DNA of 64,000 nt, from contig NZ_WUTY02000001.1 in the NCBI RefSeq assembly GCF_009828925.2, positions 4,990,492-5,054,491 of the forward strand, in the 5' to 3' direction. The position numbers and the translations under genes are program-made. The DNA is from Methylicorpusculum oleiharenae (lineage in GTDB: Bacteria; Pseudomonadota; Gammaproteobacteria; Methylococcales; Methylomonadaceae). Shown piece by piece: positions 33,857-49,571 of the stretch (positions are counted from its first letter, which is position 1; every line of letters begins with the position of its first letter). The notes under the pieces were generated by a model, which saw nothing but the letters and a program-made list of their open reading frames with translations, made no database searches and was not told the origin of the DNA.

Positions 33857-33898
33857 GAGCGTTAGCGTACCGACTAAAGTTACCTATGAAGCTAGAGT
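33857..33898 (+). promoter_or_regulatory. Stress-island element, site 1, with -10-like hexamer
   Basis: GAGCG-TTA-GCGTACCGAC at 33857-33874, then 18 bp, then TAGAGT at 33893-33898. It is one of five matching elements in the island. It points toward the copper-storage-like gene, whose start is 107 bp after the hexamer. The rest of the 33537-34004 gap has short reading frames without resemblance and no other feature. Confidence 0.6.
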
Positions 33899-34004
33899 TT
33901 CAGCAAGGTTTTTAAGCGATCCAAGTATCACTTGAAGCCCAGTCCTTGACCGAAACGACTTGTTCATTTTTGGTCATTGCCTTCTTTTTATCCTGGAGAA
34001 CGCC

Positions 34005-34367
34005 ATGAATCAACCAGCTTATGCCCACACAAGCGCTGAACATTCGATGCAAGACTGTATCGAAGCCTGTAACCAGTGTCATCAAGCCTGCCTGCAAACC
34101 GCAATGAACCATTGCCTTAAAGCCGGGGGGAAGCATGTTGAAACTGAGCACTTTCGCCTGATGCTGAACTGTGCCGAAATTTGTCAGACATCGGCAAATT
34201 TTCAGCTCAGCAGTTCTTCTTTTCATCCGCTTGTTTGTGAAGTCTGCGCCAAGATTTGTGAAGCCTGCGCAGAAAGTTGCAAAAAGATTGGTGGAATGGA
34301 TGAGTGCGTTGAAGCCTGTTTAAATTGTGCCGAAAGTTGCCGGAAAATGGCAACTACCCAGCACTAG
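34005..34367 (+). CDS. Four-helix-bundle copper-storage-like protein (Csp/DUF326)
   Basis: 120 aa with 16 Cys, most in CxxxC or CxxC spacing along helices ([27 protein letters not shown]). This is the pattern of Csp proteins, whose Cys line the core of a four-helix bundle and bind many Cu(I) ions. No signal peptide is visible, so a cytosolic Csp3-like role is likely. The ATG at 34005 follows GGAGA; the frame is open 15 codons further up but lacks a ribosome-binding site. Just before the sorbosone-dehydrogenase-like gene (2 bp). Confidence 0.85.
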
Positions 34368-34369
34368 TC

Positions 34370-35722
34370 ATGACACTGATGAATTCAAGACGCTACTTAA
34401 CTTTCTCAGCGCTTGCTTTTATTTTAACTGCCTGCGGTGAAGTTGCCCAGTTACCGTTCGCGGCCGGAGTTGGCGCAAAACCCCAACTCCCGGCACCGAA
34501 TCCGACACTGATCCCTACGATTAACATCGCGGCACCCGTGGGTTGGCCAGAAAATGCCACACCCACAGCGGCGCCGGGGATGGCCGTTAACGCTTTCGCT
34601 ACCGGACTCGACCACCCACGCTGGTTATATGTATTGCCCAACGGAGACATTCTGGTCGCCGAAACCAATGCACCACCCAAACCGGAAGACGGAATAGGCA
34701 TCAAAGGCTGGGTCATGAAATGGGTATTGGATAAGGTTGGCGCAGGCGGACCCAGCGCCAATCGGATCACACTGCTGCGCGATACCAATGGGGATGGTGT
34801 AGCGGAAACGCGCACGGCGTTTATCGAAGGACTCAATTCGCCTTTTGGCATGGCATTGGTTGGCAACGATTTTTACGTTGCCAACTCCGATGCGCTGGTG
34901 AGATTTACCTACAGACAAGGCCAAACCCGAATCACACAACCAGGAACCAAAGTCCTGGACCTACCGGGTGGTCCAATCAATCATCATTGGACCAAGAATA
35001 TTTTGGCGAGTGCGGATGGAAAGCGCTTGTATGTGACGGTAGGATCAAACAGCAATGTCGCCGAAAACGGTATGGACGAGGAAATCGGCCGTGCCGCTAT
35101 CTGGGAAGTGGATCCGCAGCGCGGAAGCTACCGCATCTTTGCATCCGGCCTCCGCAATCCCAATGGCCTCACCTGGGAGCCGGAAAGTGGCACACTGTGG
35201 ACAGTCGTTAATGAACGCGATGAAATCGGCAGCGATCTGGTGCCCGATTACCTGACTTCCGTTCCCGATAACAGTTTTTATGGGTGGCCATATAGCTACT
35301 ACGGCCAACATCTGGACGAACGCGTGCAGCCGCAACGCCCTGACCTGATAGCTAAAGCCAGAGTCCCGGATTATGCACTCGGAACTCATACCGCTTCACT
35401 CGGCCTCGTCTTTTCCAATAGTTCCAAATGGCCTGCGCCATTCAGCAATGGCGTTTTCATCGGCCAGCACGGATCCTGGAACCGCGAACCGCGCAGTGGT
35501 TATAAAGTTATCTTTTTAGCTTTCAAAGACGGTAAACCCGTTGGCGATCCGATCGACGTATTGACAGGATTTGTTAGTAATAATGACGAGGCATTCGGTC
35601 GGCCGGTTGGAGTCGTGCTCGACAAAAACGCTGCCTTGTTGGTTGCCGATGATGTTGGCAATGTGATCTGGCGGGTGACGAGGGCTATAACCAACAGTAT
35701 CGAGCCAAATCAAACGAAGTAG
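34370..35722 (+). CDS. Sorbosone-dehydrogenase-like (PQQ-type beta-propeller) lipoprotein, copy 1
   Basis: A 450-aa exported protein with a lipobox FILTACGE, so lipid-anchored in the envelope. The rest is a six-bladed propeller of the soluble glucose/sorbosone dehydrogenase type, with blocks [31 protein letters not shown] and [17 protein letters not shown] use is known in the family and is inferred here. The start at 34370 is 2 bp past the copper-storage-like stop, so both are likely co-transcribed. A close paralogue is at 46841-48157 in inverted orientation. Confidence 0.8.
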
Positions 35723-35867
35723 ACAGAGCATTAGGCGGGTTCGGCGCAAAGCCCCAAGAGTTCTCGAATAAGCTCAACTATTAATTGTTTATTGTAAGCA
35801 CTATTTCACACCGCGGATTGCACTTATAACTTGAATCCAAGCACCAACTTAAACAGGAAATTTCATC

Positions 35868-36692
35868 ATGAGCACGATCACTACCAAAGATGGCACAGAA
35901 ATCTACTACAAAGACTGGGGCTCTGGTCAACCCGTAGTCTTCAGTCACGGCTGGCCGCTCAGCTCTGATGCTTGGGAAAGTCAGATGGTCTTCCTGGCAG
36001 CCAATGGCTATCGCTGTATTGCTCATGATCGTCGTGGTCATGGTCGTTCCAGTCAGCCTTACAATGGCAACGACATGGACACCTATGCCGACGATCTCTC
36101 AGAGCTGATCGAAAGACTGGATCTAAATGACATTTCTTTGGTTGGCCACTCTACCGGCGGCGGTGAAGTTGCCCGATATATTGGCCGCCATGGGTCTCAA
36201 CGCGTTGCCAAGGTGGTATTGATGGGTGCTGTTTCGCCGCTGATGCTCAAGACCGACGCCAATCCTTCAGGCCTGCCAATCGAGGTGTTTGATAAGATTC
36301 GTGCCGGCGTAACCGCTGATCGTTCGCAATTTTTCAAGGATCTCACCACGTCGTTCTACGGCACTGATAGACCTGGGGCCAAGATCAGTCAAGGTGTCCG
36401 CGATGCATTTTGGTTACAGGGCATGCAGGGCGGCTTAAAGAACCAGCTCGACTGTATCAAAGCTTTTTCCGAGACGGATTTTACTCCAGACCTCAAGAAA
36501 TTCGATGTGCCTACCCTTATCATTCACGGCAATGACGACCAGATTGTGCCGATCGATGCCTCGGCTCACGCTTCGGCCAAATTGATTAAGAATGCGACGT
36601 TAATGATTTACCCTGATGGCCCTCATGGTCTCGCAGACACGCATAAAGACAAGCTCAATGCCAACTTATTGGCCTTTCTGAAAGGTAACTAA
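35868..36692 (+). CDS. Alpha/beta hydrolase (non-haem chloroperoxidase/esterase type)
   Basis: A 274-aa soluble hydrolase. The nucleophile is Ser95 in GHSTGGGE, the acid is in [11 protein letters not shown] and the His in [12 protein letters not shown], a complete triad. The N-terminal [13 protein letters not shown] and [12 protein letters not shown] are typical of the so-called chloroperoxidase group, which act as esterases or perhydrolases. No signal peptide. A clear AGGAAAT ribosome-binding site lies before the ATG. It stands alone in the stress island. Confidence 0.85.
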
Positions 36693-36693
36693 T

Positions 36694-36808
36694 CGCCCGA
36701 TTAGAATCGAGGGTGTAGGCGCTTGATTTCATAGGACGCGTGAAACCATCCCTGTTGCAGAAGCCTTTTCAATCAAGCACCTACACCCACTATAATTGGA
36801 GGGTGAGC
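36694..36808. repeat. Dispersed inverted-terminus repeat, family B, copy 2
   Basis: Reverse orientation relative to the copy at 13821-13960. It starts 2 bp after the hydrolase stop with CGCCCGATTAGAATCGAGGG and ends with TATAATTGGAGGGTGAGCAG; the inner arms GGGTGTAGGCGCTTGATT and AATCAAGCACCTACACCC pair with each other. It lacks the long central hairpin of copy 1. Confidence 0.75.
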
Positions 36809-36877
36809 AGATACTCTGAAAGCTTAAAAGCGACCCACATTATTGAAACAACATTCGTGCAAACCAACTCCACCTTT

Positions 36878-36919
36878 GTTCGCTTCCGTACAGAACACGG
36901 TTAGATCTAGGTATATCTT
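36878..36919 (+). promoter_or_regulatory. Stress-island element, site 2, with -10-like hexamer
   Basis: GTTCG-CTT-CCGTACAGAA at 36878-36895, then 18 bp, then TATCTT at 36914-36919. It points toward the BON-protein gene, whose start lies 189 bp further on. The last base of the core differs from the other copies (A for C). Confidence 0.55.
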
Positions 36920-37107
36920 AAAAACCGAGTGCAGGGAGCTAGCCTTTTGCGCTTTAGCCATTGCTATCTGGCAATGACTAAATAATTATTCAGAATACGC
37001 ACTTAACAAAGACAAATAAACGAGTGCTGCAAGCGACCATCAGCTTTGGTCGAGCAAAGACATCATTTCATTATCTTGAAAACAACACTCATCAGTCGGA
37101 GATCACT

Positions 37108-37485
37108 ATGTTTAAACAATTTTCGTTAGTTATGGTTACGCTAACAGCCGGTCTACTAATGATGACCAGCCCTATACAAGCCGAATCAGCATTGGAAAAT
37201 ACCGAGATCAATGTTCGCGACAAGGATAGCGCTACATTAACTCCGGAAGATCAAAAGGAAACCGAAGGCGATATCACTATCACGGCTGCAATACGGCAAG
37301 CTGTGATTAAAGATGAGTCGCTATCAGTCAATGCACAGAATATAAAAATTATCACCCGTAATGGCGTAGTGACTTTGCGCGGCCCTGTTGAAACTGAAAC
37401 TGAAAGTACGAAACTACAAAAAATCGCCGAGGAAACGAGCGGTGTAGTAAAGGTAGATAATCAACTAGAAAATAAAGCGCCTTAA
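37108..37485 (+). CDS. Exported BON-domain protein (OsmY-like)
   Basis: 125 aa: signal peptide (1-24, cut after IQA), an acidic linker and one BON domain (around 55-122, ITAAIRQAVIKDE to the hallmark NGVVTLRGPVETE). BON proteins are periplasmic and help cells survive osmotic or envelope stress by binding phospholipid surfaces. The ATG at 37108 has GGAG before it; an open extension to 37024 has no support. It lies 17 bp before the next gene, so an operon. Confidence 0.85.
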   Translation: MFKQFSLVMVTLTAGLLMMTSPIQAESALENTEINVRDKDSATLTPEDQKETEGDITITAAIRQAVIKDESLSVNAQNIKIITRNGVVTLRGPVETETESTKLQKIAEETSGVVKVDNQLENKAP

Positions 37486-37502
37486 AGGCCCAGGAGAACG
37501 TC

Positions 37503-38018
37503 ATGAATAAATCAGTTTTTTGTATCGCCCAAAATCTCGAACAAACAGAGAGCATTGTTAGCCACCTGAGCACCGCGGGGTTTTCAAACGATGCTATATC
37601 GGTGCTTTTTCCCGACAAATCCACGACTCAGGATTTTGCCCATGAAAAGCACACTAAAGCACCGGAAGGGACGGCTATTGGTGGCACTGTGGGCTTAGGC
37701 ACGGGTGCTGTAGTTGGTTTGTTAGCCGGGATTGGCGCTTTGGCTATTCCAGGTGTTGGACCATTAATCGCAGCAGGTCCTATTATGTCGGCACTGAGCG
37801 GTGCAGCTGTCGGAGCGGCCACAGGTGGTTTGGCTGGCGGATTAATTGGCTTGGGCATTCCAGAGTATGAAGCCAAGCGCTATGAAGGAAAAATCAAGGG
37901 GGGCAGCGCCTTGATTTCTGTCCTGGCGAGAACCAGAGATGAGATTGATAAGGCGAAAGATATTTTCGAGAAAGCAGATGCAGAGGATATTTCCTCGACT
38001 GAGGAAGCCTCTATCTAA
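37503..38018 (+). CDS. Glycine-rich membrane stress protein (general stress protein 17M-like)
   Basis: 171 aa. The first 60 residues resemble the small alpha/beta module of GSP17M/YflT-type stress proteins. Then two Gly/Ala-rich hydrophobic stretches (around 58-82 and 90-118), probably membrane-inserted, and a C-terminal charged part. The function is unknown; family members rise in expression on starvation or salt stress. It follows the BON gene closely (17 bp, with AGGAGA ribosome-binding site) and precedes a hairpin terminator. Confidence 0.65.
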   Translation: MNKSVFCIAQNLEQTESIVSHLSTAGFSNDAISVLFPDKSTTQDFAHEKHTKAPEGTAIGGTVGLGTGAVVGLLAGIGALAIPGVGPLIAAGPIMSALSGAAVGAATGGLAGGLIGLGIPEYEAKRYEGKIKGGSALISVLARTRDEIDKAKDIFEKADAEDISSTEEASI

Positions 38019-38028
38019 TCAGAGAGAG

Positions 38029-38052
38029 GCGCATCACTTTTAAATGATGCGC
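38029..38052 (+). terminator. Hairpin terminator after the BON operon
   Basis: GCGCATCA (38029-38036) and TGATGCGC (38045-38052) form an 8-bp stem with an 8-nt loop, starting 10 bp after the stop. The T-run that follows is poor (TTCACTCTTC), so termination may be partial. Confidence 0.55.
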
Positions 38053-38118
38053 TTCACTCTTCATCTGATATATGGCTAAGTAAACGTTATCATTAAATAA
38101 TTACTTAAGGAATCTGTC

Positions 38119-38545
38119 ATGCATAACATTGAAGCAATCAACAAATTATTGAAAGATGAATTAGCAGCGACGGAAACCTATCAACAGGCTTTAAACAAGC
38201 TTAAAGAAGATGTCAGTCTAGGCGAAGCAGAACAATTAATGCCCATTTATAAGGAGCATATCGTTGCAGTTGCCAGTCTCCAGACACAAATCCGTGGTCT
38301 TGGAGGCACGCCCGATGAGGGTCAGGCGCTTTTGGGGCACATGGGCAAAATTAGTTCTGGGAGGTACTAATATTCTTGGCCAACAGTCCGTTCTAAAAGC
38401 GCTGCACGAAGGAGAAAAAAGTTATGAAGAAGCTTTAAAGGATACCCAGCTAGCTGCCGATCTTCGCTCATTGATTGAAACAAAGCTGCTGCCTGCTCAA
38501 AAAGCGCATATTCGCACGTTAGATCTACTGTTAGACGCGGCTTAG
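38119..38545 (+). pseudogene. DUF2383 ferritin-like (PA2169-type) protein with a frameshift
   Basis: Two frames together make one four-helix DUF2383 protein of about 140 aa. The first runs 38119-38370 (MHNIEAINKLL to GGTPDEGQA); the second begins FWGTWAKLVLGGTN and runs to 38545. They join if one base near 38326-38329 (GCGC) is removed. As read, the first frame ends in unrelated residues after about 70 codons. It is either a sequencing error, a recent mutation or, less likely, programmed slippage. Such proteins occur in stress islands with BON and CsbD genes; the function is unknown. Confidence 0.8.
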
Positions 38546-38620
38546 GTTTTGAGACGATGGCTTTATTACTGATCTATTAGTCTGTTTACAACCCTTTTTA
38601 CTATCAATGGAGTTACACTC

Positions 38621-39001
38621 ATGATTAATCACTTACCATATAGTTTATTGGCTCTCTTGTTTACCTGTTCGACAGCCTGGGCGAATGAACCAACAAACTC
38701 ATCCACAAAAAGTGAGAGCAAACAAAATTGCCCGGCATTTAGCACGCTTGATAATAATCACGATGACTTAATTAGTCGAGACGAAGGCTTAAGTAATGAG
38801 TATGTATCTAGATACTGGGACATACTGGACGCCGACCTGGACGGAAGTTTAGCACCCGCAGAATTTGCCAAGCTGGAATCGGTTGTGCAAAGAGAAGAGT
38901 CTTTAAAAACTGACCATCCTCAAAATGTCGAACAGTATAAAAAGGGGAAATATATTTCTCCCAACGAACAGATCGAACGTAATAAACGCGAAGATAAGTA
39001 G
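38621..39001 (+). CDS. Exported EF-hand calcium-binding protein, first copy
   Basis: 126 aa with a signal peptide (1-21, cut after WA-NE) and two EF-hand loops: D44-NNHDDLISRD-E55 and D70-ADLDGSLAPA-E81, both with the usual D-x-D/N-x-D spacing and terminal Glu. It probably binds calcium in the periplasm. The C-terminus is charged and free of domains. A similar protein is encoded at 46305-46673. AGGAG-like GGAG lies before the ATG. Confidence 0.75.
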   Translation: MINHLPYSLLALLFTCSTAWANEPTNSSTKSESKQNCPAFSTLDNNHDDLISRDEGLSNEYVSRYWDILDADLDGSLAPAEFAKLESVVQREESLKTDHPQNVEQYKKGKYISPNEQIERNKREDK

Positions 39002-39117
39002 TAATTCTAATCTTACAAAATCAATAGGTTATATAACTGAGGTGCGACTAACTCAACTTCTATAAGTTTACCAGCTCCTTCTAAAATCAGCGGCTGATGT
39101 GATGCGTTTTTCTCTAT

Positions 39118-39159
39118 GTGCGCCGCCGTACAGACCCATTTTAGTCCTGCGTGTAGATT
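39118..39159 (+). promoter_or_regulatory. Stress-island element, site 3, with -10-like hexamer
   Basis: GTGCG-CCG-CCGTACAGAC at 39118-39135, then 18 bp, then TAGATT at 39154-39159. It points toward the membrane protein at 39395, leaving a leader of 235 bp. The remainder of the 39002-39394 gap has nothing else recognisable. Confidence 0.6.
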
Positions 39160-39394
39160 CAAAATGCAGGCTAAGGCATTAAAAAAACAGGGTAATGACG
39201 TGAGTTGGATTCAACTCATCAGCACGCATTGACCCGCTAATCGAAAAAACCTTCTGTGACATAAATTAAGATATTGTTACCGATATCACTTAGCCTCCGT
39301 GCAGCAAATTAGTCACCGCTATTTACGAAGGCGTTCAGATGCAGTCCGTTGACTCTGACACTCTCTAATAAACTTAACTGACGGGAAATCATTT

Positions 39395-40357
39395 ATGCCT
39401 CTTACCAATAATGTAGCCACAGACGAACTCGGGCGCCCCCTACCAGGCGTCTATCAAGAACCTATCCACTCCCAAACAAGCGCAGTGTCGTGGGGAGCCA
39501 TCATCGCAGGAGCCGCTGCTACAGCAGCTCTGGGGCTGATTCTGTTAATGTTAGGAACAGGATTGGGTTTGTCCTCAATCTCGCCATGGGCATACAGCGG
39601 CGTCAGTGCCATGACCTTCGGCGTATCGACTATCATCTGGCTGACCTTCACCCAACTTGTTGCCTCAGGAATGGGGGGTTACCTTGCCGGCAGACTAAGA
39701 ACAAAGTGGGTTGATACGCAATTAGACGAGGTCTATTTTCGTGATACCGCGCATGGTTTTTTATCCTGGGCGATTGCGGCGCTTATTACCGCAGCGCTAC
39801 TGACTTCAGTCATTGGGTCAATCGTCAGCGGTGGCATTCAGGCGGGTGCTACAGTAGCTGGCTGCGTAGCCACGGGGGTGGGGGTTGTTGGGTCTGAGAA
39901 AGCAAAATCTGATGCTGACAATCAAGTAATGGGCTACTTCGTGGATTTTCTGTTTCGAAGAGACATCAATGCTGCCGGTCAACCCGAGCATAACCCTATG
40001 CCAATGCCTGGAGCCTTTGAGAAACAATGGCCTGCCGGATCAGCACCTGAAGTGACCCGCATTTTCATGAATACGGTCCACAATGGACAATTGTCTGCTG
40101 ATGACATTAACTATGTCGGTCAGCTAGTTGCTCACCGCACTGGCTTAACCCAGCAGGCTGCTGAGAAACGTGTGATTGATACTTATGCACGCCTGCAAAC
40201 TAAATTACAAGATGCAGAAACCGCGGCGAAAGAAGCGGCTGATAAAACCCGCAAAGCTTCCGCCTATGCAGCGCTGTGGCTTTTCATCTCGCTGCTTATT
40301 GGTGCTTTCGTTGCCAGCTTTTCGGCCATTTTTGGTGGTCGGCAGCGCGATTTGTAA
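39395..40357 (+). CDS. Polytopic membrane protein (PhnA-like annotation in relatives)
   Basis: 320 aa with about five hydrophobic segments (around 32-55, 68-92, 118-140, 145-165 and 292-312) and a soluble helical loop (around 200-285) holding paired Ala/Lys/Glu-rich helices. Relatives carry uninformative names such as PhnA-like. The function is unknown. It ends 33 bp before a 24-aa membrane peptide gene, a pairing I recall from other proteobacterial stress islands, suggesting an operon. Confidence 0.65.
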   Translation: MPLTNNVATDELGRPLPGVYQEPIHSQTSAVSWGAIIAGAAATAALGLILLMLGTGLGLSSISPWAYSGVSAMTFGVSTIIWLTFTQLVASGMGGYLAGRLRTKWVDTQLDEVYFRDTAHGFLSWAIAALITAALLTSVIGSIVSGGIQAGATVAGCVATGVGVVGSEKAKSDADNQVMGYFVDFLFRRDINAAGQPEHNPMPMPGAFEKQWPAGSAPEVTRIFMNTVHNGQLSADDINYVGQLVAHRTGLTQQAAEKRVIDTYARLQTKLQDAETAAKEAADKTRKASAYAALWLFISLLIGAFVASFSAIFGGRQRDL

Positions 40358-40390
40358 TTACACAACCCAACCACTGACAGGATAAACACA

Positions 40391-40465
40391 ATGCGCTCAA
40401 TACTCTTGTATTTCCTTGGCATTCCAATCCCCATCATCATTCTGATTGCATTATTCGTGCGTTAG
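40391..40465 (+). CDS. 24-aa single-helix membrane peptide
   Basis: The frame reads MRSILLYFLGIPIPIIILIA and ends LFVR: one hydrophobic helix with the central G-I-P-I-P-I kink. Peptides with this pattern recur in many proteobacterial genomes. It follows the membrane protein gene after 33 bp, with ACAGGATAAACACA before the ATG (AGGA ribosome-binding site). Probably a small membrane-stress peptide; the function is not known. Confidence 0.65.
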   Translation: MRSILLYFLGIPIPIIILIALFVR

Positions 40466-40539
40466 ACGTTAATTTAAGAGTTGATGCTGGTAAAACTACC
40501 CACCCGCTTTGAATCTTGGATTCAAATTTCGTCAGTGCC

Positions 40540-40645
40540 TAAAGAGGCAACGGGTTGTTCGGCAAAGGCTATGCCAGCATGAATGCTGGCATAGGAGCCT
40601 ACATGGATGTATTTAAGGCGTCCTTTGACTGGCACCCCTGTGCCG
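40540..40645. repeat. Palindromic intergenic element sharing a core with family B
   Basis: A near-perfect 26-bp palindrome, CTATGCCAGCAT-GA-ATGCTGGCATAG (40569-40594), is followed by GAGCCTACATGGATGTATTT and AAGGCGTCCTTTGA, close to GAGCTACAGGGACGTATTTA and CGCGTCCTTTGA in family B copy 1. Short arms TTCGGCA (40558-40564) and TGCCGAA frame it. No gene is present. Confidence 0.55.
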
Positions 40646-40677
40646 AATTTCGATCTACGATGTGTATAAGTTAAAGA

Positions 40678-40969
40678 CTGAAGTTTCCCAATAATTTCAA
40701 AAATGAACTGCCATTCTGCTTGAGTTGCAGGACTTATCGATAGAGTCTGCGTAAACAGTCGCAAACCATTTAATAAAGCACTTTCACGTAAAGGCTGAGG
40801 CGTCATCCCGGCAGGGATTGCCGGGATCCAGGGCACAAGGACGTGCTACAGCCCTCGCCATCCATGGCTTCTGGTTTCCGGCAATCCCTGCCGGAACGAC
40901 GGTAACTATTAAAGCAAACAACGCTCTCTAATAAGCCTGGACAACCCTATAAAAATTGGGAAACTTCAG
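40678..40969. repeat. MITE-like repeat, family C, full-length copy
   Basis: 292 bp with exact 15-bp inverted ends, CTGAAGTTTCCCAAT at 40678-40692 and ATTGGGAAACTTCAG at 40955-40969. Inside lies a REP-like inverted pair, CCGGCAGGGATTGCCGG and CCGGCAATCCCTGCCGG (around 40811-40893). Other copies are at 60123-60360 (shorter core) and 48309-48476 (left end lost). It sits between the 24-aa peptide and the GGDEF-EAL gene, and no transposase is present in it. Confidence 0.75.
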
Positions 40970-40988
40970 GTTAAAGAATTTTGATCGG

Positions 40989-42860
40989 TTATCGAGCCAG
41001 AAGCGCCTGAAAGTTTTCCAGCGGAACCGGCATGCCGAACAGATAACCCTGGCCTAGACGGCAACCCTGTTGTTCCAGAAAAAGGCGTTGCGCGCTTGTT
41101 TCAACACCTTCGGCGATGACTTCCATACCTAAATTATTGGCCATGCCGATAATGGTTTGAACAATCAAGGCGTCTGATTGCGTTACACCGATATTGCGGA
41201 CAAAGCTCTTGTCGATTTTGAGTTGATCAAGAGGCAATTGCGTCAGATAAGACAGTGATGAATAGCCGGTGCCAAAATCATCCACCGATAAACTGACGCC
41301 CAGTTTTTTGAGCGCCAGCATTTTGGCGACGGTATCGCCAATGTCCTTGAGCATGACGTTCTCTGTAAGTTCCACAGTAAGAAGATTGGAACGGATGCCC
41401 GTTTTTGCCAACACCGCTTTGACTTTTTCAACGAAGTCAACTTCATGGAACTGGTTGGCGCTGACATTGATTGCCAATTTTAATTGTTGCGTTTGCGCAT
41501 TTTTTTCCCAGGCCTTAAGCTGAGCACAAGCTGTTTCCAGCACCCAGAGCCCAATCGGCCTGATCAGTCCGGTTTCTTCCGCTAATGGAATAAACTCCAT
41601 AGGAAGTATCAATCCTCGCTCCGGATGCTGCCATCGCAATAAGGCTTCGGCGCCGAACACCTGACCATCGAGGCTGGTTTGTTGCTGAAAATACAGTTGT
41701 AATTGATTCTGCGCCAAGGCTACACGTAAATCAGCTTCCAGAGCCGCGCGTTCAGTGACCACCGCCTGCATCTTCTCATCAAAAAAGCACAGGGAATTGC
41801 GCCCATTAAGTTTGGCTTGATACATGGCAATATCAACATGCCTTAATAATTCATCTTCTTCCACTAAATGATCGACAAACAGCGTGGCACCCATACTGGA
41901 TGAGCAACGATAGTCATACCCTTCGAGCAGATAAGGCTCATTCAACGCGGCCAATAGTTTTAAACCGGCAGCCTTGACATGAATGGCCGCATCCTCAGGA
42001 CACACACCCAGGTCCTCCAGCATAATGACGAACTCATCGCCTCCCAGACGAGCAGCAGTATCATTCTCGCGAACATTGCTCACGAGCCGCCGGGCGACGT
42101 GCTGAAGCAACATATCACCCTTGTTATGCCCAAGCGAGTCATTCAACATTTTGAAGTTATCAAGATCGATAAACAACAACGCGCCATACTGCTTGTTCCG
42201 GGCACTGGAAGCCAGCGCTTTATGTAATCTATCCTTAAAGAGCTGCCGGTTTGGTAAATGAGTTAATGGATCGAAGAAAGCCAGTTGTTCAATCTGCTCG
42301 TTAGCGGCCTTTTGTTGCGAAATGTCGATTAGCGCAATTCGCAAGAGTGGCTGAGCATCCTCGGCCTCCCGCAGCAGACAGTCGACAAGCGCATAAAACA
42401 CAGTCCCATCAGCATGATTCATGCACAATCCAATCTCTTGTTTGTCACCTTTGGCCTGTTTCATCATATTCAGGAAGAAGCGATACCAGCGGTCCCTGTC
42501 CTGGTTATCAACAAATTGTGAAAAACGGCGTTTGATCAATTGAGCGCGATCCATCCCCAGCAATCCGCAAGCGGTCAGGTTTGTTTGGCTAATCAGACCG
42601 TCCCGATTAACGGTAATATAAGCAATCGGGGCAAATTCATAGAGATCGATGTAACGATCCCGCGCTTCCTCCAGTTTGAGATGAGCATTGCGCAATTCCT
42701 CATTCTGCATCTCCAGTTCAACCTTGTGTACAAGCAACTCATGCAGCAAGACATCAGAAGGCTGAGCCGATAGTTCAGATGGCGACACACTGTGCACCAT
42801 GGCTTCTGCCTTTGCTCTGAGAGATTGACGACGCTCACAGCCATCCCATTTTTGATTCAT
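40989..42860 (-). CDS. PAS-GGDEF-EAL protein (c-di-GMP turnover)
   Basis: 623 aa, no membrane segment. An N-terminal helix region (around 35-70), a PAS domain (around 70-190), GGDEF (around 195-360, LGGDEF intact) and EAL (around 375-620) follow in order. The EAL signature is GAEALLRW, and NVSANQF, ELTEN, DDFGTGYSS and KIDKSFV are all intact, so a phosphodiesterase is likely, with possible cyclase activity. The ATG overlaps the stop of the CheB-CheR gene (ATGA, 42857-42860). They are probably a signalling pair. Confidence 0.9.
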   Translation of the reverse strand: MNQKWDGCERRQSLRAKAEAMVHSVSPSELSAQPSDVLLHELLVHKVELEMQNEELRNAHLKLEEARDRYIDLYEFAPIAYITVNRDGLISQTNLTACGLLGMDRAQLIKRRFSQFVDNQDRDRWYRFFLNMMKQAKGDKQEIGLCMNHADGTVFYALVDCLLREAEDAQPLLRIALIDISQQKAANEQIEQLAFFDPLTHLPNRQLFKDRLHKALASSARNKQYGALLFIDLDNFKMLNDSLGHNKGDMLLQHVARRLVSNVRENDTAARLGGDEFVIMLEDLGVCPEDAAIHVKAAGLKLLAALNEPYLLEGYDYRCSSSMGATLFVDHLVEEDELLRHVDIAMYQAKLNGRNSLCFFDEKMQAVVTERAALEADLRVALAQNQLQLYFQQQTSLDGQVFGAEALLRWQHPERGLILPMEFIPLAEETGLIRPIGLWVLETACAQLKAWEKNAQTQQLKLAINVSANQFHEVDFVEKVKAVLAKTGIRSNLLTVELTENVMLKDIGDTVAKMLALKKLGVSLSVDDFGTGYSSLSYLTQLPLDQLKIDKSFVRNIGVTQSDALIVQTIIGMANNLGMEVIAEGVETSAQRLFLEQQGCRLGQGYLFGMPVPLENFQALLAR

Positions 42861-45754
42861 ACTTTGCTCTCCTTGGTTAGCTCGTCGCCGATATCCTCAG
42901 TTGTTAACAGAATCAACGACGATTCAATTGACTTGCCCGCCAGCCTGCGAGCATTCAAACTGATTTTGTGGTGCCCGATGGCAGGAAAATCATGTTCTAC
43001 AACATAGCCTTCAACGCTCTGATCGTGGGGTAAAATAATTTCCAGTAATTCGCGTAAAGCAGGTATATTCCACTGGCTATTACCCAGCTCGTAAATCTTG
43101 CGGCCAATAGTGTCCGCGGCTATGACCTGAAAATACTGGTAAAAGGCGTGGTTGGCAGACACTATCTGTAATTCGCCATCCAGAACCAGCAGCGGTCCGC
43201 GAATGGTATTGACAATGTTCTCGGCAAGTTCCCCTGCCAATTGCATCCGGGTCTCCGCCTCGATACGCTTGCTGATGTCGGTAAAAGTAAGCACGACGCC
43301 TTCGATCACATTATCCAGTGTACGGTAAGGCTGAATTCGAACCAGATACCAGGCACCGCTGTCGGCGCGCATTTCCAGCTCAACCGGCACCAGCGAGTCA
43401 AGCACTGCCTGTGCCTTGCCCAATAATAATTCACCATCCAGATCAGACTTGATATCGCTCAACAGTCGGCCCACGTCAGAAGGCACTAACCGGTAAATAC
43501 GAGTGGCTTCACGCGTGAAGCGCCGGATAATCATGTGATCATCCAGAAACACGGTGCCTATATTGGTATTGTCCAGAAGATTCTTCATATCATTCTGCAT
43601 ACCGGCCAGCTGCTCAATTTTGGCCTGCAGTTCTGAATTTACCGTGATGAGTTCTTCGTTGACCGATTGCAGTTCCTCTTTGGAGGTTTCCAATTCTTCA
43701 TTGGTGGATTGCAATTCTTCATTGGTGGATTGCATTTCTTCATTAGCAGATTTCAGCTCCTCGTTGGTAGCTTGTTGCTCTTCATTCTGTGCTTGATGAC
43801 TTTCTTTCAGGTAGGCAAGATTACGCTCCAGTTCTTCAATTCGTCCCAGTTCGGCTGTTTTTGCGATGCGTTTGCGCTTCGATTTGACCTCCGGAATGAC
43901 AACCTCTTGAAAACTAACCAATAACAGATTATGACTATCATTGGGATCGGGTAAAGGCCGCACACTGAGACTGATTGTCGAAAACCCGCCGTTGGTTTTA
44001 ATCTGTACTTCATGACCCAGAACAGACACCCCCTCATTTGCTGCGCCAAGAATGGCAGTGCGCAACTCCAGTTCCAGGCCCTCACGAGCCATGTCAACCA
44101 CGTTGAGACTGGCCTGCCCGGGAGCCGGACGAAGATATTTGCCGGTATCACCATGCACATATAGGATATTGCCCTTTAGGTCCGTAACCACTGAAGCGGG
44201 AGCAAAGCATTGCACGAGAAGCCGACGGGTAAGTTCGGCAAAATTGGGTTCAGTTATTTTTTTCATGGTTTCCTCTGGGACTTTATCGCTAGATTCTGAG
44301 GCCCAGGACACGACATGCGCCATCAATGCCCGAGAAGATTTGATGGAATGAGTGGCACGGTAGAGCTTCCATTTACGATTGAGTGATGAAAATAACTCGG
44401 TATGATTACCAATACTTTCCGATGGAGACAGAAACAGCACTCCACCGGGTTTGAGAGCGTAGTGAAACATCGGAACCAAGCGGTTCTGCATTTCAGCTTC
44501 CAGATAGATCATCAGGTTACGACAACTGAGCAGATCGAGTTTGGTGAAAGGCGGGTCCTTGATCACGTTCTGGGTAGCGAACACAATCATCTCACGAATC
44601 TCCTTCTTGACCCGGAACCCGGCATCTTCCTTGACGAAGAAGCGGCGCAACCGTTCCGGCGTAACATCCTGGGCAATATTGGGTGGATAAAAGCCTGCGC
44701 GAGCAATTGCGATGGCGTCATCATCCAGATCAGTACTGTAGATCTGCACCCGGAATTCCTGGCGTGACTGTTCCATCCGTTCGCGCAACAGGATGGCCAT
44801 AGAGTAGGCCTCCTCACCGGTCGCACAACCCGCAACCCAGACCCGAAAAAGGTAATTATCCGGTTTGTCTTCGAGCAGTTGGGGAAGTATTTCATTTTCA
44901 AGAACAGCAAACGCCTCTGTGTCGCGAAAGAAATTGGTGACATTAATCAGCAACTCTTTAAACAGAATATGTACCTCGGCTGGATTCTCCTTGAGATAAA
45001 GAGCATAAACATCGGCATCATCAATATTGTTTTGTGACATGCGGCGCTCAATGCGTCGGCCAATAGTGCTTTTTTTATACAACGCAAAATCGTGTCCGGT
45101 GATAGTGCGCAATTGCATCAGTATCCGGTTTATGCTTTTTAAGGCTTTGGGCATTTCAGCGCGTACTTCAGTCGTGTCGGCACCTTTCAGCAACGCTTCC
45201 GGCATTTTATCGACGGGCAGCACATGGGTGGCATAACCCGCATTAATCGCACTGGTAGGCATGCCGTCATATTTTGCAGTGGCCGGTTCCTGTACCAGAG
45301 AGAGCCCCCCCGCACCGATGATCTCGCGCAAACCCAATGTGCCATCGGTGCCCGTACCGGAAAGGATAATGCCAACGGCTTTTTCCCCCTGGTCTTCTGC
45401 CAATGACCTCAGAAAAGCATCAATCGGCATACGCTGCCCGCGAGGTTCATTGGGCAGACTCAGTTGCAATTTTCCATGAAAGATGGCCAGATCTCTGTTC
45501 GGCGGAATGACATACACACAGTTGCGGGCCACCTGGAGTTGATCCTGCGCCTCGAACACCGGCATGGACGTGTTGCGCTGCAGAATTTCAGTCAGCAGAC
45601 TGACGTGGCTGGGATCAAGATGCTGAACTAATACGAATGCCATACCGCTATCGGTAGGCTCATGACGGAAAAATTGCTCCAAAGCTTCCAGGCCACCGGC
45701 AGAAGCCCCTATACCTACGATGGGAAAAAGGTCTTCTGTGTTTTTAGATTCCAT
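42857..45754 (-). CDS. CheB-CheR fusion protein with coiled coil and PAS domains
   Basis: 965 aa. CheB methylesterase is at about 10-195 (Ser in GASAGGLEAL, His in QHLDPSH, Asp in GTGTDG). CheR methyltransferase is at about 215-475 (NVTNFFRD, VAGCATGEEAYS, LLSCRNLMIYL). A long coiled coil follows (around 640-730, heptads such as STNEELQ repeated), then two PAS domains to the end. No kinase or receiver domain and no che operon nearby. Such fusions act outside chemotaxis in stress signalling. It is translationally coupled to the GGDEF-EAL gene. Confidence 0.9.
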   Translation of the reverse strand: MESKNTEDLFPIVGIGASAGGLEALEQFFRHEPTDSGMAFVLVQHLDPSHVSLLTEILQRNTSMPVFEAQDQLQVARNCVYVIPPNRDLAIFHGKLQLSLPNEPRGQRMPIDAFLRSLAEDQGEKAVGIILSGTGTDGTLGLREIIGAGGLSLVQEPATAKYDGMPTSAINAGYATHVLPVDKMPEALLKGADTTEVRAEMPKALKSINRILMQLRTITGHDFALYKKSTIGRRIERRMSQNNIDDADVYALYLKENPAEVHILFKELLINVTNFFRDTEAFAVLENEILPQLLEDKPDNYLFRVWVAGCATGEEAYSMAILLRERMEQSRQEFRVQIYSTDLDDDAIAIARAGFYPPNIAQDVTPERLRRFFVKEDAGFRVKKEIREMIVFATQNVIKDPPFTKLDLLSCRNLMIYLEAEMQNRLVPMFHYALKPGGVLFLSPSESIGNHTELFSSLNRKWKLYRATHSIKSSRALMAHVVSWASESSDKVPEETMKKITEPNFAELTRRLLVQCFAPASVVTDLKGNILYVHGDTGKYLRPAPGQASLNVVDMAREGLELELRTAILGAANEGVSVLGHEVQIKTNGGFSTISLSVRPLPDPNDSHNLLLVSFQEVVIPEVKSKRKRIAKTAELGRIEELERNLAYLKESHQAQNEEQQATNEELKSANEEMQSTNEELQSTNEELETSKEELQSVNEELITVNSELQAKIEQLAGMQNDMKNLLDNTNIGTVFLDDHMIIRRFTREATRIYRLVPSDVGRLLSDIKSDLDGELLLGKAQAVLDSLVPVELEMRADSGAWYLVRIQPYRTLDNVIEGVVLTFTDISKRIEAETRMQLAGELAENIVNTIRGPLLVLDGELQIVSANHAFYQYFQVIAADTIGRKIYELGNSQWNIPALRELLEIILPHDQSVEGYVVEHDFPAIGHHKISLNARRLAGKSIESSLILLTTEDIGDELTKESKV

Positions 45755-46050
45755 AATGGATGAACTGTTCAGACAGGGCGTTTGGCAGGGTTAATTTTTC
45801 CGGTTTGGAAAATCACCTCGAAAATTAACCGGATTTTCTTCAGATCCATTTTACACCCTCCTGTCTCCTGATGTTAACGAAAAGCCTCGTCCAGGAAAAA
45901 TGAATCTTAACGGATACAGAAAATTCTCAGTCATTATTAAAATCCTAAATTCAGGGTTAAAACAAAGGGTACTAAAGCTTCCATTTGTTACGAAAAATCA
46001 CAGGTGATTATAACCGGTCAATGCCACCAGGCACAGTGAACAGGCCTTAT

Positions 46051-46093
46051 GTTAGTCACCGTACCGACTCAAGTCATCCCTGTAATCTATAGT
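46051..46093 (+). promoter_or_regulatory. Stress-island element, site 4, with -10-like hexamer
   Basis: GTTAG-TCA-CCGTACCGAC at 46051-46068, then 19 bp, then TATAGT at 46088-46093. It points toward the EF-hand gene, 211 bp after the hexamer. The rest of the 45755-46304 gap has an AT-rich imperfect repeat (GGTTAATTTT / AAAATTAACC near 45790-45830) and no gene. Confidence 0.55.
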
Positions 46094-46304
46094 GGATCCG
46101 GACTTGATAAATTGATGTCAAAAGAGCCGATCAATTCTTATATTGACAATCCAGCGTTTTAAATCAAGAGGGTCAAGCCCGTATCGCGCAGTGTGTTTAC
46201 AATCCTTAAGAACTCAGAGGACGGGTAAACACAAAGCATTCAAAGCAGGTCATTAAAACAAAGTTCTAAATGAACCTGCTTAATCTCAACTCAATGTAAT
46301 CATT

Positions 46305-46673
46305 ATGAAAAACTCAAATCGCACAATGCCGTATAAAAACAGTCAGTTATCCAAAATTATCCCGATAGCTGTCGTAATGGGTCTCGGCATGGCCCTTGTT
46401 ATCAATCCAGCTAATGCTGAAAAATCAACGTCTAACAGTCTACACTCGCAAAGTAATGCTGCGGAAAACGCAGGAGATGGCAAAGGAAAATTACCCACAT
46501 TTGCTGAAGCCGATACGAATGGCGATCATTACGTCACCAAAAGAGAATTACAAAATTTTCCCTATTTATTGCAAACTTTTGACAAAGTTGATGCCGGTAA
46601 TGATGGAAAACTGGAACAGCATGAATACCAAAACCTTGAAATGGAAACCAAACGGGCAGGCGAAGTCGATTAA
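46305..46673 (+). CDS. Exported EF-hand calcium-binding protein, second copy
   Basis: 122 aa. A signal segment (around 15-38, cut after NANA) and two EF-hand loops: DTNGDHYVTKRE and DAGNDGKLEQHE, each of twelve residues with acidic ends. Probably periplasmic. It is distantly like the protein at 38621-39001. Two ATGs (46305 and 46326) are possible; neither has a strong ribosome-binding site. A bidirectional hairpin follows and separates it from the convergent sorbosone-dehydrogenase-like gene. Confidence 0.7.
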   Translation: MKNSNRTMPYKNSQLSKIIPIAVVMGLGMALVINPANAEKSTSNSLHSQSNAAENAGDGKGKLPTFAEADTNGDHYVTKRELQNFPYLLQTFDKVDAGNDGKLEQHEYQNLEMETKRAGEVD

Positions 46674-46805
46674 CTCATCGAGCAAGACCCAACTTTTGAT
46701 AAATTAGCCCCCTCTTTAGTCCGCTGATGTAAATCGACGGATGCTTGTTCAGAATCGATCGTGATTTAAGCGTGTCAATCGCTTGATTTGCAGACATCAT
46801 CCGCT

Positions 46806-46834
46806 CAAATAACCCGGCCGGGTCGGGTTATTTG
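46806..46834. terminator. Bidirectional terminator hairpin
   Basis: CAAATAACCCG (46806-46816), a 7-nt loop, CGGGTTATTTG (46824-46834): a perfect 11-bp stem between two convergent genes ending at 46673 and 46841. T-runs are weak on both sides, but location and symmetry fit a terminator. Confidence 0.7.
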
Positions 46835-46840
46835 AAGTGG

Positions 46841-48157
46841 CTACCGTTGGAGTCTGACCGGCGTTACCCGCCAGATAATGTTGCCAACGTCATCGGCGAC
46901 CAGCAGGGCTGATTGCTTATCAAGCACTACACCCACCGGCCTGCCGAAGGCTTCTCCATCTTTGCTGACAAAATCCGTCAACACATCAATCGGCTTTCCG
47001 TTAGGTTTGCCGTCCCTAAAAGGTACAAATAGAACCCTGTAGCCACTGCTTGGCTTGCGATTCCACGAACCATGCTGACCGATAAATACACCATTATCGA
47101 AGGGCGACGGCCAAGTTGAATTTCTAGCATAAACAAGACCTAGTGAAGCGGTATGGGAACCCAGCCCATAGTCTGGCACTCTCGCACTGGCGACAAGATC
47201 GGGCCGCTGAGGCTCAACCCGTTCATCCACATGTTGACCAAAATAACTGTATGGCCAACCGAAAAAACTGCTGTCGGGAACCGATGTCAGGTAATCCGGA
47301 ACAAGATCGCTGCCAAGTAAATCGCGCTCGTTAACCACAGTCCAGAGTACTCTGCCATCAGGCTCCCAAGCCAGACCATTGGGATTGCGCAGACCGGATG
47401 CGTAAAGCCGGTAACTACCTTGCACAGGATCGACTTCCCAAATTGCGGCACGGCCAACTTCCTGATCCAGGCCGTTCTCGGCTATATTGCTGTTTGACCC
47501 CACCGTCACATAGAGCCGTGATCCATCCGGGCTAGCCAGCACATTTTTGGTCCAGTGGTGATTGATTGGACCACCCGGCAGATCCAGAACCTTGACGCCA
47601 TTTTGAGTTATCCGGGTTTCACCGCCGTTATAGTGAAACTTCATCAATGCATCCGTATTGGCCACATAGAAGTCGTTACCGATCAGAGCCATGCCGAAAG
47701 GTGAATTAAGTCCTTCGAAAAATACCGTACGCGTTTCCGCCACACCGTCACGATCCTCATCGCGCAGCAAGGTGATGCGATTGGCACTGGGCCGCCCTGC
47801 TCCGGCTTTGTTCATTGCCAGCTTAACCAACCAGCTTTTGATCCCATCGACTGGCTGATCAGGCGCATTGGTCTCGGCAACAAGAACATCGCCATTAGGC
47901 AACACATAAATCCAGCGCGGGTGATCGAGATGAGTGGCAAATGCATTTACAGACAGCCCAGGCGCAGGAAAGGGTGAAGCGTTCTTCGGCCAGCCCACTG
48001 CTTTTGCAATGTTGACGGTGGGAATAAGGGTTGGATTGGGTGGCGGCAGTTGCGGATCAGGACCGATGCCCGCTGAAATCGGCAATTGAGCAGTATCCCC
48101 GCAAGCCGACAGCACTGTCGCTATCAGGGTAAATAAAATTACGAACCTTGGAGACAT
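46841..48157 (-). CDS. Sorbosone-dehydrogenase-like lipoprotein, copy 2
   Basis: 438 aa, lipobox VLSACGDT, then the same propeller sequence as the 34370-35722 protein, with long identical blocks such as [18 protein letters not shown] and VVNERD. It lacks some of the first copy's C-terminal tail. Being in inverted orientation near the other edge of the stress island, it may derive from duplication. PQQ dependence is inferred from the family. It may oxidise an aldose or aldehyde in the periplasm. Confidence 0.8.
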   Translation of the reverse strand: MSPRFVILFTLIATVLSACGDTAQLPISAGIGPDPQLPPPNPTLIPTVNIAKAVGWPKNASPFPAPGLSVNAFATHLDHPRWIYVLPNGDVLVAETNAPDQPVDGIKSWLVKLAMNKAGAGRPSANRITLLRDEDRDGVAETRTVFFEGLNSPFGMALIGNDFYVANTDALMKFHYNGGETRITQNGVKVLDLPGGPINHHWTKNVLASPDGSRLYVTVGSNSNIAENGLDQEVGRAAIWEVDPVQGSYRLYASGLRNPNGLAWEPDGRVLWTVVNERDLLGSDLVPDYLTSVPDSSFFGWPYSYFGQHVDERVEPQRPDLVASARVPDYGLGSHTASLGLVYARNSTWPSPFDNGVFIGQHGSWNRKPSSGYRVLFVPFRDGKPNGKPIDVLTDFVSKDGEAFGRPVGVVLDKQSALLVADDVGNIIWRVTPVRLQR

Positions 48158-48308
48158 AACGTCAGAACTCCTGTTTTTAATACTAAGCGCTGATCAATTT
48201 GCGACATTTCGGACAGGCCGTCAATTAACGTGCATTAGGATGTGCAGGCCATGCAGATCTCGATACAACCTGCGCAGTCGAGGCGTTGAACATTTGGCTG
48301 AGCTTCAA

Positions 48309-48476
48309 CTCGGCGGTTATTGCCGAGATTCAGGACACAAGGACGTACCACTGCCTTTGCCATCCATGACTTCTGGATTCCGGCGATCCCTGCCGGAACG
48401 ACGGCAACTATTAATGTAAATATAATTGCCCAACAAGCCCGGGCATCCCTATAAAAACAGAGAAACTTAAGTTTTC
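48309..48476. repeat. MITE-like repeat, family C, truncated copy
   Basis: The right two thirds of the 40678-40969 element: GGACACAAGGACGT, CCATCCATG, CCGGCGATCCCTGCCGGAAC and the end ATAAAAACAGAGAAACTTAA. The left end with its inverted repeat is missing. It lies upstream of the sorbosone-dehydrogenase-like gene at 48157, on its promoter side. The rest of the 48158-48545 gap has only a hairpin at 48486. Confidence 0.65.
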
Positions 48477-48485
48477 ACGTAATCT

Positions 48486-48513
48486 TGCAGGGGCAAATAA
48501 ATTCGCCCCTGCA
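48486..48513 (-). terminator. Hairpin after the lmo0937-type gene
   Basis: TGCAGGGGC (48486-48494) and GCCCCTGCA (48505-48513) form a 9-bp GC-rich stem with a 10-nt AT loop, 33 bp beyond the stop of the 48546-48695 gene on the minus strand. No T-run follows; it may be a rho-type or mRNA-stabilising hairpin. Confidence 0.5.
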
Positions 48514-48545
48514 GAAATTTTCGGATGGTTGTTGCTGACCTAATC

Positions 48546-48695
48546 CTAAAGTGCTCTTCGTCCTTGTATGACATTAAGCACAACGACGATCAGTGCGATA
48601 ACCAACAGAATGTGGATAAATCCGCCCACAGTGTATGAGGACACCAAGCCTAATACCCAAAGAACGACCAGGATAATTGCAAGATTGATTAACAT
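48546..48695 (-). CDS. lmo0937-family small membrane protein
   Basis: A 49-aa protein starting MLINLAIILVVLWVLGLVSS, with a second hydrophobic run ILLVIALIVVVLNVI and a tail QGRRAL. This two-helix pattern is the lmo0937/DUF5670 family, which recurs beside CsbD genes. The ATG (48693-48695) follows AGGGAGAAAT, a good ribosome-binding site. The gene is below the usual ORF length cut-off, and the antisense frame at 48568-48771 is its shadow. Probably stress-induced; the function is unknown. Confidence 0.8.
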   Translation of the reverse strand: MLINLAIILVVLWVLGLVSSYTVGGFIHILLVIALIVVVLNVIQGRRAL

Positions 48696-48707
48696 ATATT
48701 TCTCCCT

Positions 48708-48728
48708 AAAAAGCCGTCGATTGACGGC
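48708..48728 (-). terminator. Intrinsic terminator between csbD-like and lmo0937-type genes
   Basis: On the minus strand GCCGTC-AATC-GACGGC (48728-48713) is followed by five T (48712-48708). It ends 12 bp before the lmo0937-type ATG, and its T-run merges into the ribosome-binding site. It may attenuate transcription coming from the csbD-like gene. Confidence 0.6.
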
Positions 48729-48794
48729 GTTAGATGAACCGTTAAAGCCAAAGGGCGGTGACCCGTGTTGACTGGAAGCTCAACAAAGCGGCAA

Positions 48795-49058
48795 TTATTG
48801 GCCTTCCTTAATATCCTGTTTGATATCGCCATAGCCCTTTTGAGCTTTACCTAAATTCTTTTGGATATTGCCTTCTACTTCCATGCGTTTGTCATCCAGT
48901 ACCTTGCCGGTGACTTCCTTGACTGTGCCTTTGGTTTCTTCGATGCGGCCCTCTACTTGATCTTCATTAACGGGGGCTTCAGTTTTGCTTTCTTCGGCAT
49001 AAATGGCAAACGAGGAAAGAGCCAGAATAATACCGGCCAATTTTAAGATGAGTTTCAT
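48795..49058 (-). CDS. Exported CsbD-family stress protein
   Basis: 87 aa: a signal peptide (1-21, cut after YA-EE) and a CsbD domain (NEDQVEGRIEETKGTVKEVT, then DDKRMEVEGNIQKNLGKAQ). CsbD proteins are highly charged helical general-stress proteins without known activity; most lack a signal peptide, so this copy is unusual in being sent to the periplasm. It is followed by the terminator at 48708-48728. Confidence 0.8.
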   Translation of the reverse strand: MKLILKLAGIILALSSFAIYAEESKTEAPVNEDQVEGRIEETKGTVKEVTGKVLDDKRMEVEGNIQKNLGKAQKGYGDIKQDIKEGQ

Positions 49059-49278
49059 AATTATTTCCTGTAAATGAGGTTAGGGAAACTAATGACTACC
49101 AAACTGTAAGCCTTCAATTTCCAGCTCAACCTAGCTAATCAGCAGAGCGGGTACTCAAGCATGCTATTTTGCCGGGTAATAATGGAGATCCGCTCGCTCT
49201 GAGCTTGAGATGAGCTTGGCGAAGGGCAGTCGTTCATGGTCCAAAAATCTGTCCTGCGCGTCGCTCAAGGACTGACGG

Positions 49279-49461
49279 TTAGTCGTCAACTGCCTTCTTA
49301 ATATCTTCCTTAAGATCGCCAAAACCGGCTTTAACCTTGCCAACGTTTTTCTCGACAGTGCCTTCGGCTTCCAACTCATCGTCATCGATTACCTTGCCGA
49401 TGACTTCTTTGACTTTGCCTTTCGCTTCTTCAGCTCGGCCTTTTACTTGATCTTTGTTCAT
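49279..49461 (-). CDS. CsbD-family stress protein (cytosolic)
   Basis: A 60-aa CsbD protein with MNKDQVKGRAEEAKGKVKEV and EAEGTVEKNVGKVKAGFGD, the family pattern, and no signal peptide. CAGGAGTACCCC before the ATG gives a strong ribosome-binding site. It lies 93 bp downstream of the site 5 element and its hexamer. Its paralogue at 48795-49058 is the exported form. The 220-bp gap between them shows no other feature. Confidence 0.85.
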   Translation of the reverse strand: MNKDQVKGRAEEAKGKVKEVIGKVIDDDELEAEGTVEKNVGKVKAGFGDLKEDIKKAVDD

Positions 49462-49529
49462 GGGGTACTCCTGATAATTGTTTTAGTTGTTATTGAGTGA
49501 AGTCTGAGACTGCTTATCACTCGATTAAA

Positions 49530-49571
49530 ACAATACTCAAATTATTGGACGCAGTCGGTACGCCAGCGCAC
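49530..49571 (-). promoter_or_regulatory. Stress-island element, site 5, with -10-like hexamer
   Basis: On the minus strand GTGCG-CTG-GCGTACCGAC (49571-49554), then 18 bp, then TATTGT (49535-49530). It points toward the cytosolic CsbD gene, 69 bp after the hexamer. This is the shortest leader of the five. Confidence 0.65.

Follow-up and report, generated by a model that had tools for sequence, protein, structure and literature searches.

Introduction

The general stress regulons of RpoS, SigB and EcfG use alternative sigma factors, and their target families include CsbD, BON/OsmY-like and DUF883/YqjD-like proteins. Genes for CsbD, BON, DUF883, DUF2171, EF-hand and copper-storage-like proteins are often called stress genes, and to our knowledge no regulator of them is known outside sigma-factor systems. 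Here we examine a stretch of 64,000 nucleotides (hereafter, the window; G000:C1:4990492-5054491) from Methylicorpusculum oleiharenae, a gammaproteobacterial methanotroph with a genome of 5.85 Mb, in which five copies of one promoter-like element occur within an island of stress-type genes. We consider it likely, from comparison of genome sequences, that these elements are activator-dependent promoters of a putative regulon under a CRP/FNR subfamily of the LGVRR type.

Within the CRP/FNR family, FNR recognizes TTGAT-N4-ATCAA, which like the element described here is a 5-N4-5 dyad, and CRP recognizes TGTGA-N6-TCACA; in CRP, R180 reads the G at 6.5 and R185 the G at 4.5 from the dyad centre. According to one report, NtcA sites have the form GTAN8TAC, lie at about -41.5 and are accompanied by a TAN3T -10 element (PMC3898017). 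RedB (RCC01561) of Rhodobacter capsulatus is reported to belong to a CRP/FNR subgroup that had previously been uncharacterised (PMC9603854). In the open-licence literature, queried by gene and family names and not by motif, we found no account of the present motif or of its candidate regulator, and no paper with both 'CsbD' and 'Fnr family'.

Results

The initial annotation had reported the element at five positions, all of which were recovered on the strands given. Four copies lie on the plus strand. Promoter 1 (33857..33898) comprises the dyad GAGCG-TTAG-CGTAC (33857-33870), the -35-like hexamer CCGACT (33870-33875) and the -10 hexamer TAGAGT (33893-33898); promoter 2 (36878..36919) comprises GTTCG-CTTC-CGTAC (36878-36891), CAGAAC (36891-36896) and TATCTT (36914-36919); promoter 3 (39118..39159) comprises GTGCG-CCGC-CGTAC (39118-39131), CAGACC (39131-39136) and TAGATT (39154-39159); and promoter 4 (46051..46093), with one additional spacer base, comprises GTTAG-TCAC-CGTAC (46051-46064), CCGACT (46064-46069) and TATAGT (46088-46093). 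Promoter 5 (49530..49571) lies on the minus strand, with the dyad GTGCG-CTGG-CGTAC (49571-49558), CCGACT (49558-49553) and TATTGT (49535-49530). The -10-like hexamers had been placed at 18 nt, or at 19 nt for TATAGT, and these distances are correct. The 18-mer GTKCG-N3-S-CGTAC-M-GAC, proposed as the common core, is exact at 39118 and 49571 but has one mismatch at 33857 (GAGCG), 36878 (which ends in GAA) and 46051 (GTTAG), and is thus too strict as written for three of the five copies. All five copies are intergenic and oriented toward the next gene, as had been claimed; the first is overlapped by two bases by a TTG-started open reading frame (ORF) at 33547-33858, which we took as spurious.

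Five such elements in one window are far beyond chance. With up to two mismatches, the written 18-mer is expected 0.33 times (100 shuffles; maximum 3; none with five or more). A weight matrix of 21 columns, trained on 207 intergenic sites that all come from other genomes, gave the five sites 29.1, 27.4, 21.8, 21.5 and 21.1 bits, compared with 6.0 for the next-best position in the window and with a best score of 15.4, the single value above 15, in 100 random windows of the same first-order composition. This training set is partly conditioned, in that the sites from a collection scan had been required to carry TAT, a TA centre, GAC and the TA of the -10; the other training sites, from relatives, were found without conditions on the flanks, and the base frequencies given below come from this unconditioned set.

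One intergenic site (L076) in the related genome G010 precedes a CRP/FNR gene and provided the lead to the regulator. Searching with the protein from this locus (E up to 1e-10) defined a CRP/FNR subfamily with the recognition helix LGVRRxGxT, which is the best candidate for the regulator. Its two main types, LGVRRVG[IV]TKAA and LGVRREG[VI]TEAA, are often adjacent. The genome under study has four copies, none of them in the window; they lie at about 15 kb, 1.785 Mb (two copies) and 3.246 Mb. All three proteins that we profiled contain the C-terminal Crp-type helix-turn-helix domain PF13545 (48.2, 55.9 and 52.8 bits; cut-off 27). All three also gave a match to the N-terminal cNMP-binding-type domain PF00027, which exceeded its cut-off in one of them.

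The presence of this subfamily and that of the intergenic motif agreed in 41 of 41 related genomes, with both occurring in the same 14; the check for a conserved regulator proposed in the initial annotation led to a family that accompanies the motif. Generic Crp-type helix-turn-helix domains are present in 39 of the 41, indicating that the association is specific to the subfamily. When the pattern GTNCG-N4-CGTACMGA and a reversed control were run on these genomes, the 14 regulator-bearing ones gave 82 matches versus 14 for the control, whereas the 27 without the regulator gave 15 versus 32. According to a simple gene caller, 71 of the 82 matches are intergenic, whereas all 15 matches in genomes without the regulator lie in genes (14 called ORFs and one tRNA-Ser gene). 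In regulator-bearing genomes the motif is therefore not equally common in coding DNA; equal frequency there had been named as an observation that would overturn the proposal.

We extended the comparison to a class sample of 370 genomes, using the stricter pattern GTNCGNTANCGTACMGAC and scoring at most 7 regulator candidates per genome, so that some regulators may be missed. The pattern matched in 31 of the 370 genomes, and the regulator was present in 48. Matches confined to rplA, recognized by eye from a frame of about 231 aa with an L10-like gene downstream, accounted for 18 of the 31 motif genomes and were set aside; three of these 18 have the regulator. After this removal, the regulator was found in 11 of 13 motif genomes as against 48 of 370 overall (p 4e-9), in 8 of 10 once the discovery-set genomes G000, G011 and G027 were dropped, and in 14 of 31 with the rplA genomes kept in. 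Exact mimics of the motif are frequent in the coding sequence of ribosomal protein L1 (VRYRTDK), as at 18 rplA loci among L310-L339, and are a trap for pattern searches.

Scanning the GTDB collection with an extended pattern returned at least 120 loci, compared with an estimated 3 or so expected by chance, and the matches listed hold at least 129 distinct sites, of which 117 are intergenic and 12 fall within called genes. Among these loci, 86 are labelled Methylococcales; the other 34 represent 33 genomes, some under uninformative labels such as 'Gammaproteobacteria bacterium'. Among the matches listed, the regulator is present in 29 of these 33 genomes, including three Nitrosomonas, two cyanobacteria and a zetaproteobacterium, and as a fragment in one more, a test that is not independent of autoregulation because the sites can be the regulator's own promoter. 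Full rescoring of the four regulator-negative genomes, together with two from the class sample (G151 and G191), left five negative and one (G431) with the fragment.

The regulator genes themselves are often preceded by the dyad. Among 101 distinct regulator genes in the fetched loci (best matches of the genome searches), an exact GTNCG-N4-CGNAC lies upstream of 37 (shuffles: mean 0.5, maximum 3) and a dyad with at most one mismatch upstream of 66 (shuffles: mean 12, maximum 19), with a TA centre in 29 of 41 exact dyads. The general regulator site thus seems to be tGTNCG-nTAn-CGNACa. According to profile matches, the motif directly precedes a regulator-family gene in Crenothrix, Methylobacter psychrophilus, two cyanobacteria and a zetaproteobacterium. 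Other genes at the same loci are an unsuitable control, as we took them to be island neighbours or to share divergent regions. Cleaner controls were provided by the window, where exact dyads precede 3 of 56 genes, two being sites of the initial annotation, and by the rplA loci, where they precede none of 36 genes (5 of 36 with one mismatch). A perfect dyad with a TA centre, GTTCGGTAGCGAAC, also lies at 61313-61326 of the window, inside a called gene (61191-61844) that resembles an HTH repressor by eye.

Arginine is kept in the subfamily at the position of CRP R180, whereas the R185 position holds E in 52, K in 11 and R in 2 of 101 proteins (4 not readable). In the DNA site the base at 6.5 remains G, and on the left half position 4.5 is almost unconstrained, the right-half counterpart base having been fixed by the query. 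The kept arginine fits the G at 6.5, and the loss of R185 fits the free left 4.5 position. Cysteine motifs are conserved as well, TAxCxRxH-like in 90 and CxCY in 100 of 101 proteins, and as a guess these residues could serve redox or metal sensing.

Promoter anatomy was derived from 64 intergenic-called sites outside the M. oleiharenae genome (one of them in a tRNA gene), collected with a pattern that contains no -10. The consensus across relatives is taTGTNCG-nTAn-CGTACmGAC followed by TANNNT. Columns that the query had left free are conserved, namely T at -3 (54 of 64), A at -2 (41), T at -1 (53), T6 (51), A7 (54) and C17 (48). TANNNT occurs at offset 35-37 in 55 of 64 intergenic-called sites versus 2 of 23 in-gene matches (p 4e-11), and at sampled offsets more than 2 bases away in 0-6 of the 64. 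TAC and TANNNT are separated by 22 nt in 45 sites, by 23 in 7 and by 21 in 3, such that by sequence the 55 sites have the geometry of class II promoters, with TANNNT 21-23 nt after the dyad. The flanks of the dyad, TAT left of the centre and MGAC right of it, are not mirror images, and for this reason C-M-G-A-C-n (columns 13-18) is best read as a -35 hexamer that shares GAC with TTGACA and lies 17 bases from the -10. Taking transcription to start 7 bases after the -10 would put the dyad centre near -41.5, the position of a class II activator.

In the window, promoter 1 is followed by a DUF326/Csp1-like copper-storage gene (33960-34367; the match to the Csp1 family is weak, 23.7 bits against a cut-off of 100), promoter 2 by a BON (OsmY-like) gene (37108-37485), promoter 3 by a gene for a 320-aa membrane protein without a Pfam match (39395-40357) and promoter 4 by an EF-hand gene (46305-46673). 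Promoter 5 precedes csbD (49461-49279) and then a second csbD-like gene (49058-48795). The search of the M. oleiharenae genome used patterns that allowed up to two mismatches, which leaves the target list incomplete; in the stretches examined, 18 sites score at least 19.8 bits. Their targets include CsbD at three sites (one in the window), BON at one site in the window and one elsewhere, with a third BON-like by eye, as well as DUF883_C, PRC-barrel, PLD-type, PLDc_N, DUF2171, EF-hand and copper-storage-like proteins, a fumarase-like lyase and some unnamed genes. The initial annotation had proposed that the element makes the island one regulon. A single regulon is supported, but it is genome-wide rather than confined to the island, and some island genes lack the element. 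With about 18, perhaps 25, promoters in several islands, the genome would hold a single regulon for envelope and general stress.

When 220 distinct intergenic sites were tallied by signature, under rough names, they gave 18 BON lipoproteins, 17 BON-like repeat lipoproteins, 14 CsbD, 6 CRP/FNR, 5 cyclases and others; 95 were left unclassified, and 39 had no called gene. Recurrent targets in relatives are proteins whose sequences we take to resemble squalene-hopene cyclase and glucan synthase. In the M. oleiharenae genome a weak site (11 bits) precedes a phosphoketolase gene, and in a gammaproteobacterial bin a protein that appears similar by eye is encoded after a strict site (loci L260 and L232). 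Two similar lipoprotein-like proteins of about 438-465 aa, with motifs in common by eye, are encoded in the island (34325-35722 and 46841-48157), which suggests duplication within it.

The csbD promoter motif is identical in two genomes of the same genus, G001 and G002. At the csbD locus of G001, the sequence upstream of the motif aligns poorly, and the -10 region and leader are conserved; the BON region of this genome is conserved throughout, with the promoter 2 site unchanged. The csbD leader (49459-49530, minus strand) contains an inverted repeat, GAGTGA...TCACTC, that is mostly kept in same-genus genomes, the comparison stretches being incomplete (one without the start of the stem, the other without its end). 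As a hairpin it was not convincing, with z -1.6 for the window sequence and an equally good fold in 13 of 200 shuffles. At L026:1501-1520 and L072:14721-14740, a single dyad matches the promoter pattern in either orientation. Genes were called to its left and right at L026 and on one side only at L072; at L026, one dyad may drive two divergent promoters.

Discussion

We propose that a dimer of the CRP/FNR family with the helix LGVRRxGxT would bind the dyad tGTNCG-nTAn-CGTACa, which has its centre near -41.5 and shares bases with a poor -35 (cMGACn), and would recruit housekeeping RNA polymerase to the TANNNT -10 in class II fashion. Upstream copies of the same site would let the regulator control its own gene, and the signal may be redox or metal, as the conserved cysteines suggest. 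A CRP/FNR dimer at -41.5 in contact with the housekeeping polymerase would explain the dyad, the poor -35 and the fixed -10 together. We infer the binding itself, activation over repression and the use of a housekeeping sigma factor from these comparisons. Of the two mechanisms offered in the initial annotation, an activator or an alternative sigma factor, the comparative evidence favours the activator, since the 5-N4-5 dyad ends in a -35-like GAC, the -10 lies at a fixed distance and the CRP/FNR subfamily co-occurs; a dedicated sigma factor is not needed, although sigma genes were not searched.

Several observations weigh against this proposal. CsbD genes track the motif nearly as well as the regulator does (14 of 41 genomes, 13 in common with the regulator), so that co-occurrence alone could mean a shared island. 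G151 and G191 carry the motif and lack the regulator even on full rescoring, and 37 regulator-bearing genomes of the class sample have no exact motif outside rplA. Upstream of 35 of the 101 regulator genes there is no dyad even at one mismatch (shuffles give a dyad before 12 of 101), and other genes at the regulator loci also often have one (78 of 172, 37 exact). Finally, there are two paralogue types, either of which may be the one that binds.

That another dimeric regulator from the same stress islands binds the dyad, with the CRP/FNR gene as a passenger, draws on the behaviour of CsbD, which shows that island genes can track the motif closely. Only two genomes separate the regulator from CsbD, G016 (regulator and motif, no CsbD) and G018 (CsbD, neither regulator nor intergenic motif), and both side with the regulator. 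The dyads that precede CRP/FNR genes across phyla, a layout like that of NtcA and the agreement of the R180 and R185 positions with the bases at 6.5 and 4.5 likewise make such a passenger role rather improbable, CRP/FNR being the one regulator family searched. We considered an activator of the LuxR type in particular; lux boxes have half-sites similar to the halves of the dyad, but with 2 bp between them and not 4, and this candidate was rejected on spacing. A CRP/FNR protein could instead act mainly as a repressor, given that binding over a -35 can also repress, or the paralogues, whose two types are often adjacent, could oppose each other at one site; the position near -41.5 and the poor -35 fit activation, and we regard this arrangement as unlikely.

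The fixed spacing to the -10 and the directional use of the element would also be expected of a -35/-10 promoter read by an alternative sigma factor of the extracytoplasmic function (ECF) or stress type. However, the conserved part is nearly palindromic (GTACG-nTAn-CGTAC), which is unusual for a -35, the spacer and TANNNT resemble those of housekeeping promoters, the dyad at L026 can be read as the full pattern from either strand and lies between called genes, and dyads also precede CRP/FNR genes; we hold this explanation to be very unlikely. Chance or a coding artefact has a negligible probability: rplA coding DNA does yield matches, and genomes without the regulator show matches no commoner than the reversed control, but for the five window sites the matrix scores of 21-29, against 6.0 for the next site and 15.4 at the top of the 100 random windows, refute it. 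Beyond the activator-dependent regulon proposed here, LGVRR-type proteins might be shared master activators of a general response to envelope stress in many proteobacteria and some cyanobacteria, with one DNA code, self-control and redox or metal sensing through cysteines, a generalization that we offer only tentatively.

The analysis matches a widespread orphan subfamily of CRP/FNR proteins to a defined DNA site and a list of targets, which would make the regulon readable from genome sequence. For methane oxidisers, it would give a handle on the switching of a whole set of stress genes, for which we found no earlier one in the literature searched.

Among described systems, NtcA offers the nearest solved structures by profile search (E 4e-12). 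The dyad becomes GTA-N8-TAC when its left half is GTACG, and the distance between TAC and TANNNT is mostly 22 nt. None of the three regulators profiled reached the equivalog cut-off for NtcA, 244.95 (25.2 and 29.1 bits in two, no match in the third), and the present sites differ from those of NtcA by the inner CG on both sides, by stress rather than nitrogen genes as targets and by mostly proteobacterial hosts. E. coli CRP and FNR share the fold family (HTH_Crp_2 above cut-off) and the class II position, but their site sequences are unlike the dyad, and at the CRP R185 position the subfamily mostly carries E or K. RedB differs in its site, which is reported to be an AT-rich nonpalindromic 12-mer (PMC9603854), the feature on which it was compared here. 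The RpoS, SigB and EcfG regulons are alike in target families, whereas here a dyad-binding activator is indicated in place of a sigma factor.

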